64,000 bases of DNA from Anaeromyxobacter diazotrophicus. GTDB taxonomy: Bacteria; Myxococcota; Myxococcia; Myxococcales; Anaeromyxobacteraceae. The notes beneath the pieces were generated by a model. That model was not told where the DNA came from and did not search any database. It saw only the letters and a program-made list of their open reading frames with translations. Location of the stretch: positions 186,001 to 250,000 of the forward strand of contig NZ_BJTG01000004.1 of NCBI RefSeq assembly GCF_013340205.1. Reading direction: 5' to 3'. The first letter of the stretch is position 1. Each line of letters opens with the position of its first letter. This document shows, one piece after another, positions 54,019 through 56,784 of this stretch. The position numbers and the translations under genes were made by a program.

Positions 54019-54777
54019 TCAGGCCTCGAGGACGCGGTGGTCCGGATCGATCCCGACGAAGCCGCCCTCGGGGACCTCGCGCCAGGGGCCCGCGCCGATG
54101 GGCTCGCTGGCGATGGCGAAGACGCCGCTCGTCGCGATGTGCGGCGCGACGTGCAGCGTGCGGCCTCGGCGGCAGACCGCCAGCACCTCGCCGTTCGTGA
54201 CGAGCAGGTTGAGCGAGGAAGGCCGCGCGGGGCGGCGGTCGGCGAGGCGGGCCACGGTCTCGACCGTCGCGGAGAGCGCGCGGCGCACGTCCTCCAGATC
54301 GGGGGCGGCGCCGGCGCCGAGGTGGGCGTCGAGCAGGGTGAGGAAGAGGAAGAAGCACCGCTCGCTGTCGGTGTCGCCCGCGAGGAGGGCGCGGTAGCGC
54401 GGGTCGATCTCCGCCTCCAGCGCGCGCCGCACCGCCGGCGCGCGGCGGAAGCGGCTCACCGTGCCGTTGTGCGCGAAGAGCCAGCGCCCGTGGCTGAAGG
54501 GGTGGGTGTTCTCCTCGACCACCTCGCCGACGCTGGCGTCCCGCACGTGCGCGAGCACGATCTCCGAGCGCGCCTCGCGCGCCGCCGCGGCGAACGCCTC
54601 GTCGGCGTGGGCCGGCATGACCCCGCGCCGGAGCTGGACGCCGGACGCGTCGTACCAGCCGATGCCCCAGCCGTGACGGTGGCGGTGCGACTGCACGCGC
54701 AGCGCGTTGTGCGCGACGCAGAGCGGCTCGTGCGGGAGGTGGAGCGGATCGGCGTGCTGGGCGAAGAGGCGGCACAT
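54019..54777 (-). CDS. class II glutamine amidotransferase (YafJ-like)
   Basis: 252 residues from ATG 54777, which places the nucleophile Cys2 right after Met as the Ntn family requires (MCRLFAQHADPL). Also HGWGIGWYDASGVQLRRG, IVLAHVRDASVGEV, NTHPFSHGRWLFAHNGTVSR (catalytic Asn/Gly pair) and GDTDSERCFFLFL. It releases ammonia from glutamine; no synthase domain is fused, so the acceptor is unknown. Third in a minus-strand run after a phosphodiesterase and a rhodanese. Confidence 0.88.
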   Translation of the reverse strand: MCRLFAQHADPLHLPHEPLCVAHNALRVQSHRHRHGWGIGWYDASGVQLRRGVMPAHADEAFAAAAREARSEIVLAHVRDASVGEVVEENTHPFSHGRWLFAHNGTVSRFRRAPAVRRALEAEIDPRYRALLAGDTDSERCFFLFLTLLDAHLGAGAAPDLEDVRRALSATVETVARLADRRPARPSSLNLLVTNGEVLAVCRRGRTLHVAPHIATSGVFAIASEPIGAGPWREVPEGGFVGIDPDHRVLEA

Positions 54778-54889
54778 CGCGGCGGCCCCGGAGCTTAGCA
54801 CTCCGGGGCGAGGTCTCAAACGGACCGCCGCCCGGCCGGTGAGGGGCGCCGCGTGGAGCGCGCGTGCGACCTGGCGGCCCGGGCGAGCG

Positions 54890-55270
54890 TCACATCGGCT
54901 GGTGCTGGTTGCCCGTCTCGTGCGCCTCGGCCGCGCGGAGCGGCTCGAGCGGCAGGTGGGCCTGGCGCCACGCGTCGAAGCCGCCCGTGAGGGCGTACGC
55001 CTGCTGGAAACCCTGCCGCCGGAGCTGGAGCGCCACCCGGGCGCTCGAGTGCTCGGCGGTTCAGGTGCAGTAGGCGACGACCAGACCTTCCCGCGGCAAT
55101 CGGCCGGAGAGCTGGGCGACGTCGGCGTCGGGCGGGATGCGCACCGATCCAGGCAGCTGCTCGGTGGCGGTCTCGTAGGCGTGAGCGCTGCGCGCGTCGA
55201 CGAAGGTGACGCGCGCGCCGTGCGCCAGGCGCGCGCCGACCTCGGCGACGCTGATGCGGGGGATCTCCAT
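54890..55270 (-). CDS. rhodanese-domain protein with in-frame TGA (candidate selenoprotein)
   Basis: GGAGG lies 6 nt before ATG 55270. The first 69 residues form the front half of a rhodanese domain (VTFVDARSAHAYETATEQLP, LPREGLVVAYC68T). TGA at 55063-55061 is codon 70; the same frame continues with intact rhodanese back-half sequence (SSARVALQLRRQGFQQAYAL, TGGFDAWRQAHLPLEPL) to a stop at 54890, 126 residues in all. The TGA thus sits in the active-site loop as C68-T-U70-T, where many relatives have C-x-C-P. A 7-bp hairpin (55028-55046) begins 14 nt after it. Read as Sec, it is a periplasmic- or cytosol-located sulfurtransferase/redox protein (no signal peptide seen). A conventional caller would report only a truncated 69-residue protein. 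Confidence 0.75.
55028..55046 (-). other. SECIS-like stem-loop in the rhodanese gene
   Basis: On the minus strand GAGCGCC-CGGGT-GGCGCTC: a perfect 7-bp stem with a 5-nt loop that has G at its second position. The loop begins 21 nt after the TGA, within the 16-37 nt window I know for bacterial SECIS elements. Two further pairs form beyond a single C-C mismatch. Confidence 0.6.
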
Positions 55271-55310
55271 GGCGGCCTCCGCCGGAGAAGCTAAGCCGAG
55301 GGGCGCGGCC

Positions 55311-55832
55311 TCACACCTCCACCGACAGGGGCGCTTGCAGCAGGGGCAGCCCGGCCTGCGCCAGGTCGAAGAGGCGCACCTCGGCCCGGCGGCCCCGCAC
55401 CACCAGGAGCCCGGCGGCCCGGGGCAGGCTGAAGCGGCGGGGGCCCGCCGCGCCCGGGTTCACGTACAGGATCCCGTCCCGCACCGCCGCCGCCGGCCGG
55501 TGCGAGTGGCCGTGGACGACCACCCGGGCGCCGGAGCGCGCCAGCGCCTGGCGGACCGGCGGGAGCGGCCGCCCGCGGGCGCCGAGCTCGTGCACCAGGA
55601 TCGCCCGCAGCTCGCCCAGCGCGACCTCGGCCAGCTCGGGCAGCGCGTCGAAGGCCGGCCCGAGGTCGTTGTTGCCGCGCACCGCCGTCACCGGCGCGAG
55701 GCCCGCCAGCGCCTCGAGCACGGCCGGCCGGACCACGTCGCCGGCGTGCAGGATGAGGTCGCAGCCGCGGAACAGCTCGTCGAGGCGCGGCTCGACGAGG
55801 CCGTGGCTGTCCGAGACGAGGCCGACGCGCAC
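55311..55832 (-). CDS. YfcE/MJ0936-type metallophosphoesterase
   Basis: 173 residues from GTG 55832 (GGAGAAGGG upstream). The metal motifs are complete: VGLVSDSHGLVEPRL (D-x-H), LILHAGDVV (G-D), AVRGNNDLG (G-N-N-D), ILVHEL and VVHGHSHRPAA (G-H-x-H). It hydrolyses phosphodiesters; substrate unknown. The rhodanese follows 40 nt later on the same strand. Confidence 0.9.
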   Translation of the reverse strand: MRVGLVSDSHGLVEPRLDELFRGCDLILHAGDVVRPAVLEALAGLAPVTAVRGNNDLGPAFDALPELAEVALGELRAILVHELGARGRPLPPVRQALARSGARVVVHGHSHRPAAAVRDGILYVNPGAAGPRRFSLPRAAGLLVVRGRRAEVRLFDLAQAGLPLLQAPLSVEV

Positions 55833-55912
55833 CCCTTCTCCGTGCCCGGCGGACCGCCCGGCGTCAACGCCCCAGGACCGAATCAGGTGATCGCGCCGCC
55901 GCCGCTCTCGTC

Positions 55913-55918
55913 TACACT
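55913..55918 (+). promoter_or_regulatory. -10-like element 8 nt before psd
   Basis: TACACT, 8 nt before the ATG with no Shine-Dalgarno sequence between; one of the candidate leaderless starts. Confidence 0.35.
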
Positions 55919-55926
55919 CTCGCGCC

Positions 55927-56784
55927 ATGCTGGAACGCGCCGTCCTCGCCGCCCTGCGCGGCGTCCCCAAGAACGCCCTCTCGCGGCTGGTGGGAGGGCT
56001 CACCCGCGCCCGCGCGCCGCGCCCGGTGCGGCTCGCCGCCATGCGCGCCTTCGCGGCCCGCTACGGGATCGACCTGTCGGAGTGCGGGGAGCTCGAGACC
56101 TTCCGCACCTTCGGCGAGTTCTTCGCCCGGCCGCTCCGGGCGGGGGCGCGCCCCGTCGCCCCCGGCGACGAGGTGCTCGTCTCGCCGGTGGACGGCGTGG
56201 TCTCGCAGGCGGGGCTCGCCGAGGGCGGCCGCCTCGTCCAGGCCAAGGGGCTCGACTACACCCTGGAGGCGCTGCTCGCCGACCCCGCGCTCGCCGCCCG
56301 CTTCCGCGGCGGGCCCTTCGCGACGATCTACCTCTCCCCGCGCGACTACCACCGCATCCACTTCCCGCTGGGGGGCGCGGTCACCGGCTACCGCTACGTG
56401 CCGGGCCGGCTCTGGCCGGTGAACCCCGCCTCGGTGCGCGGGGTGCCGGGGCTCTTCACGGTGAACGAGCGGCTCGTCACCTCGCTCGAGACCCCCCTCG
56501 GCGCCTGCGCGGTGATCGCGGTCGGCGCCACCATCGTGGGCCGCATCCGCGCCTTCTACGACCCCACCATCCCGGTCTCGAACCTGCCGCGCGCCACCCC
56601 GGTCGCGCGCGAGTACCCGACCCCCATGCCGGTCGAGAAGGGCCAGGAGCTGGGCGCCTTCGAGATGGGCTCGACGGTGATCCTCCTGCTCGAGCGCGGC
56701 CGCGCCGCGCTGCGCCCGGGGCTCGCGGAGGGGACGCGGGTGCGGGTCGGCGAGGCGATCGGCGGCCCCGCGGCCTCCGCCTAG
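55927..56784 (+). CDS. psd: phosphatidylserine decarboxylase
   Basis: 285 residues. [64 protein letters not shown] and the self-cleavage site EMGSTVIL near residue 252. The usual L-G-S-T is M-G-S-T here, but the G-S cleavage pair that forms the pyruvoyl group is intact. It makes phosphatidylethanolamine at the inner membrane. Divergent from the phosphodiesterase gene (94-nt gap). Confidence 0.94.

Follow-up and report, generated by a model that had tools for sequence, protein, structure and literature searches.

A predicted CxU rhodanese selenoprotein of Anaeromyxobacter diazotrophicus and the conserved hairpin downstream of its in-frame UGA

The window, i.e. the entire stretch of 64,000 nucleotides of Anaeromyxobacter diazotrophicus DNA that was analyzed, contains on its minus strand a rhodanese gene of 126 residues (54890..55270), defined by its reading frame, its Pfam match and the predicted fold of its product. 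The frame starts at an ATG at position 55270 and ends with a TGA at 54892-54890, with a Shine-Dalgarno-like GGAGG located 5 nt 5' of the start codon (55276..55280, minus strand) by direct reading of the sequence. The only internal stop is another TGA, codon 70 (55061..55063, minus strand), which is the predicted Sec70 codon, and the same codon is TGA in genome G003 and in further relatives from the order. Two codons upstream lies the codon for Cys68 (55067..55069, minus strand), which is invariant in both of our alignments (A1 and A2) and is the partner in the C-x-U motif, so that the active site reads Y-C68-T-U70 (AYCTUT). The sequence-only reading had proposed exactly this frame, from the ATG through codon 70 to position 54890, and had predicted that gene callers would report a 69-residue fragment; the open reading frame listing with translation table 11 indeed shows only a 69-residue piece at the locus. 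Other CxU rhodanese genes of this type are likely to be called as truncated fragments.

The upstream neighbor on the same strand encodes a YfcE/calcineurin-like phosphodiesterase (55311..56042) and is separated from the rhodanese gene by a gap of 40 nt; the two genes possibly form one operon. Downstream, also on the minus strand, is a gene for a class II glutamine amidotransferase (54019..54819), which is EgtC-like although it scores below the cut-off of the EgtC model. The two neighbors give no clear hint to the function of the rhodanese.

When read through the TGA, the product matched the Pfam Rhodanese family (PF00581) over residues 9-103 with 42.4 bits (cut-off 22.2; E = 1e-10), and its predicted fold was that of a complete rhodanese (pLDDT 91.6, pTM 0.83, based on 64 homologues and with Sec modelled as Cys). 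The structures nearest to the model were 3tp9 (Z 15.8), 3flh, 3gk5, the persulfide dioxygenase-rhodanese 5ve3 and GlpE (1gmx, Z 13.1). The rhodanese domains of GlpE and 3tp9 have the same fold as the window protein, but in their sequences the active-site loop is shorter and contains an ordinary Cys, with neither a CxC/CxU pair nor Sec. In the model, the strand formed by residues 63-67 ends immediately before Cys68 and the next helix starts at residue 74. Counted on the sequences, two more residues lie between this strand and the conserved Gly that follows the helix than in ordinary rhodaneses. Because of this longer loop region, the canonical catalytic Cys corresponds in the sequence comparison to Cys68 if counted from the strand and to residue 70 if counted from the helix, and an ungapped profile alignment to 6mxv matched residue 70 with the catalytic Cys. 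The TGA had earlier been described as lying two residues after the catalytic Cys68. The spacing C68-T-U70 is correct, and the strand count agrees with Cys68 as the catalytic residue, whereas the helix count favors Sec70.

We searched the genome (G000; 4.83 Mb in 17 contigs, 100% complete) for the Sec decoding genes selA, selB, selC and selD, the check that had been suggested for the locus, and all four are present with matches above the curated cut-offs. These are tRNA-Sec (76.3 bits; ARAGORN also calls SeC(tca)), selB (337 bits, C8:2153-4075), selA (523 bits joined, C8:13533-14972) and selD (L049; 395 bits, C2:35154-36080). The selD gene contains one in-frame TGA of its own, as do other SelD proteins of the selenoprotein type. 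Every genome with a CxU relative from the order also contains selB, which is consistent with Sec decoding but weak as evidence, since 78 of the 99 related genomes have selB anyway. The genus mate G001, for which the assembly is 92% complete, has neither a selB match nor a close rhodanese match, which may reflect loss or an assembly gap.

The best match outside the genome itself, among the 99 related genomes, was found in G003 of the same bacterial family, with 52% identity, the motif YCTUPNE and a TGA at the same codon. Protein and profile searches recovered another seven members of the order with CxU (L056, L057, L059, L060, L061, L063 and L065), in which the motif is YCSU, FCSU, ACDU or TCDU, followed by PNE or PSE. 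Three relatives from the order (L012, L058 and L067) carry CxC at this site, in the form of YCAC, YCGC or CCSC, and the sequence C[AGS]CPNE, with Cys at the Sec position, is present in L012, L016 and L017 as well as in copies from Burkholderiales and Xanthomonas. Thus, the Sec position exchanges with Cys, as had been expected for residue 70, while Cys68 is constant across the aligned Sec and Cys homologues. The window copy has T-A after the Sec residue, where most homologues have P-N; a T at this place is also seen in several other Sec homologues. With the looser pattern Y-C-x-UGA-[P/T]-x-E-x-x-x-A-R, we obtained at least 100 stretches from the GTDB representative genomes, and among the matches listed, 79 of 80 loci read as rhodaneses, the exception being L130.

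The hairpin downstream of the TGA (55028..55046, minus strand) consists of a 5' arm at 55046-55040, the loop CGGGU at 55039-55035 and a 3' arm at 55034-55028 (GAGCGCC-CGGGU-GGCGCUC). It starts 14 nt past the UGA and has seven base pairs and a loop of 5 nt containing G, which bears out the perfect stem seen in the first inspection of the locus. The folding energy is -14.1 kcal/mol for 40 nt, and the spacing from the UGA to the loop is 21 nt. The published bSECIS constraints are a loop of 3-9 nt, a stem of 4-16 bp, a G in the first two loop positions, a spacing of 16-37 nt and a minimum free energy of -7.5 or lower (PMC13188914), and the window hairpin lies within all of them. On its own, the hairpin is weak evidence, because 26% of synonymous reshuffles (protein fixed, local codon usage) gave a stem of at least seven pairs in an allowed place, and we therefore rejected the window hairpin alone as proof of a SECIS element. 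Folding of the 48-nt region gave an energy with z = -2.05.

Compared across genomes, the hairpin is strong evidence at the level of the sequences. The exact pattern of C-x-UGA plus hairpin was found in 10 of the 195 genomes of the phylum, two of the ten copies (L114 and L115) having been found by the hairpin pattern itself, and the reversed control pattern gave 0. A stem was present at the same place in 89 Sec genes from several phyla. Columns fixed by the search pattern (the UGA, the GC of Ala77 and the CG of Arg78) do not count as evidence. Three pairs of the stem are formed by synonymous third positions, and all three covary. Pair 20-32 was CG in 67 genes, UA in 8, GC in 8, UG in 3 and GU in 1, with UA occurring in Gammaproteobacteria, Desulfobacterales, Pyrinomonadaceae and SAR324, among others. 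For pair 23-29 the counts were 82 CG, 6 GC and 1 UA, and pair 17-35 was GC in 27 genes and CG in 17, in addition to others. Pairing was observed in 48 genes at 17-35 (32.2 in shuffles), in 87 of 89 at 20-32 (64.4) and in 89 of 89 at 23-29 (76.9), levels never reached in 2000 shuffles, which ignore relatedness. When the 3' partners were slid by whole codons, pairing dropped from 84% to 22-55%; one unrelated third-position pair reached 94%, and the percentages for single pairs should therefore not be over-read. The outer pairs are variable, with 18-34 and 17-35 not formed in roughly half of the genes, so that the constant part is the inner four to five pairs.

The codon for Arg78 in the loop was CGU in 72 genes and CGG in 19, that is, in all 91 genes counted. 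Elsewhere in the same domains, these two codons make up 41% of the CGN codons, with CGC and CGA accounting for 59% (Fisher 6e-33, a statistic that ignores relatedness). The third base of this codon is constrained neither by the protein nor by the search pattern, and the choice of CGU or CGG places G[G/U] at loop positions 2 and 3, which the published bSECIS model requires in the loop (PMC13188914). Thus, the earlier description of the hairpin as SECIS-like agrees both with the published constraints and with its conservation across genomes. The covarying stem and the invariant G[G/U] loop codon form an unusually clear SECIS signature, on which a search model could be built.

A scan of the phylum with a Cys version of the pattern gave 0 exact matches, and the Cys controls were for this reason taken from loci of the protein search and from plasmid records; two of the six plasmid Cys copies fell outside the motif expression and were left out of the pairing score. 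We did not find a complete SECIS element in the Cys homologues examined. The loop and most of the pairs are missing in L012, L058 and the scored Burkholderiales/Xanthomonas copies. The Cys copy L067 (G018, same bacterial family) retains the residues SSARV but has AGG instead of CGN, and its lower stem is broken. In the tree it is nested among Sec copies and its hairpin looks partly decayed, making it a candidate for a Sec-to-Cys change.

In the sequences of independent genomes, the frame downstream of the TGA, the TGA codon and the hairpin are all conserved to a degree that is clearly beyond chance. We consider it very probable that the window gene is a selenoprotein gene in which TGA70 is read as Sec. 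Translation with Sec70 had been suggested from the locus alone, and the decoding machinery, the conserved TGA, the exchange with Cys and the covariation of the hairpin all support it at the sequence level. The product would be a single-domain selenoprotein with a rhodanese fold. SelB, bound to the hairpin 14 nt downstream, would deliver Sec-tRNA(Sec) at UGA70, and translation would then run on through all 126 residues, giving the motif Y-C68-T-U70.

The chemistry is a more balanced matter. Within the active-site loop, Sec70 and Cys68 may work as a redox-active pair: Sec70 would attack the substrate, whether a sulfane-sulfur, a persulfide or a peroxide, and the product would be resolved by Cys68 as a selenenyl-sulfide. 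Such a pair would make the protein a thiol/selenol oxidoreductase or a persulfide-transfer enzyme. We give this CxU redox function about an even chance. Redox roles of such selenoproteins are considered likely, though untested, in a review (PMC9312934). Somewhat less probable, and equally compatible with a selenoprotein, is a role as an ordinary sulfurtransferase or sensor, which would fit the rhodanese fold and the presence of persulfide dioxygenase-rhodanese and CoA-disulfide reductase-rhodanese fusions among the nearest structures. The canonical C-x4-R loop is, however, absent from the window protein, and the invariant Cys68 together with Sec or Cys at position 70 suggests a dithiol-like pair.

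Explanations in which no Sec is inserted fare far worse. If the TGA were a genuine stop, the gene would be a pseudogene or encode a fragment of 69 residues, with the similarity downstream of the stop in decay. We regard this as very unlikely, although the dN/dS ratio for the pair G000 and G003, which carries little information, is not low (0.77 before the UGA and 0.94 after it, by a simple method applied to GC-rich DNA with few sites) and, of these two copies, the one in the window has diverged further, with a branch length of 0.61 versus 0.25. The same TGA is followed by an intact frame in many independent genomes, and in the alignment of G000 with G003 the similarity past the TGA is at least as good as before it. 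Decay is also at odds with the covarying stem and the codon bias at the loop Arg, and half a rhodanese domain would be unable to fold as the family does. Insertion of Trp or some other standard amino acid at the UGA, or a role for the short product alongside the long one, is less probable still. Bacteria are able to read through UGA codons, but the genome contains the full Sec machinery, the exchange partner at position 70 is Cys, and UGA is also the terminal stop of this very gene. A sequencing or assembly error in a TGC (Cys) or TGG codon is the least credible of all, since the one base needed, even with Cys homologues in existence, would have to be wrong at the same codon in more than 80 genes from many projects, while the window copy itself has the SECIS-specific codon choice and none of the true Cys copies examined showed the complete element.

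A selenoprotein of this kind is not new, since CxU rhodaneses are already catalogued. A 2005 study reported rhodanese-related selenoproteins from the Sargasso Sea (PMC1088965), and "Rhodanese-like form 3, CxU" appears among the predicted selenoproteins in published tables (PMC13188914, PMC9312934). For Anaeromyxobacter dehalogenans, 11 selenoproteins have been listed, none of which is a rhodanese (PMC1794560). The model for form 3 is NCBIfam NF041203 (rhodanese_LYCAU; cut-off 115 bits; representative TKB26178.1), which was the best NCBIfam hit of the window protein, covering residues 2-109. Both have a single rhodanese domain with C-x-U in the same loop, and C68-T-U70 falls in the same columns as the motifs of the CxU and CxC homologues; the motif itself differs, being LYCAU in NF041203 and AYCTUT in the window protein. 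The score of 80.7 bits (76.2 in the genome search) is below the cut-off of 115, and annotation pipelines therefore probably miss the window protein. Of eight CxU homologues from other genomes, two passed the cut-off (120.5 and 155 bits) and six were below it (67-96 bits). NF041203 thus seems to capture only part of the CxU rhodanese group, to which the window gene contributes a well-supported selenoprotein for its bacterial family.

In the tree, which is based on few columns and has many unresolved forks, the window protein and its G003 orthologue cluster with two copies from Acidobacteria (gp4/Pyrinomonadaceae; 98/94), apart from a group rich in Desulfobacterota. The half of the tree that holds the window protein (100/99) also holds both homologues that pass the NF041203 cut-off, and the DedA/VTT-fused forms examined fall in the other half. 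In these fusions, annotated for example as "DedA family protein/thiosulfate sulfurtransferase GlpE" (WP_043095768.1), a C-terminal rhodanese with CxC or CxU that is homologous to the window protein follows an N-terminal membrane domain, whereas the window protein consists of the rhodanese domain alone. The Sec versions have the same hairpin as the window gene. A C-terminal CxU Sec rhodanese on a DedA/VTT-like membrane frame was observed in L056, L057, L059, L060, L061, L063, L065, L114 and L115; the VTT match of L059, at 31.9 bits, is just under the Pfam cut-off. Our literature search found no paper linking selenoprotein, DedA and rhodanese. The fused Sec forms and the wide range of members scoring under the curated cut-off add somewhat to the significance of the group. 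We tentatively suggest, as a reading with somewhat less than an even chance, that stand-alone and DedA-fused CxU rhodaneses constitute one large multi-phylum selenoprotein superfamily, most of which the curated model does not cover, and that they use a distinct, as yet undescribed Cys-x-Sec chemistry in an enlarged rhodanese loop.

Two further types of rhodanese with in-frame TGA codons were observed. The first is encoded in the same genome (L083; G000:C4:392209-392544, minus strand) and has an N-terminal signal-like segment and the motif FYCSGPKUMASH (C-x4-U, UxxS). It resembles rhodanese selenoprotein form 1 (UxxS; PMC13188914), which shares with the window protein the Sec in the rhodanese loop but belongs to a separate subfamily, distinguished by its C-x4-U spacing and signal-like N-terminus. 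About a dozen relatives of L083 have the TGA at the same place, many of them with a similar hairpin. The other type has the motif YCW[SN]xxU, with the in-frame TGA in L097, L098 and L099, and occurs with Cys in L101 (YCYSQTCHLA).
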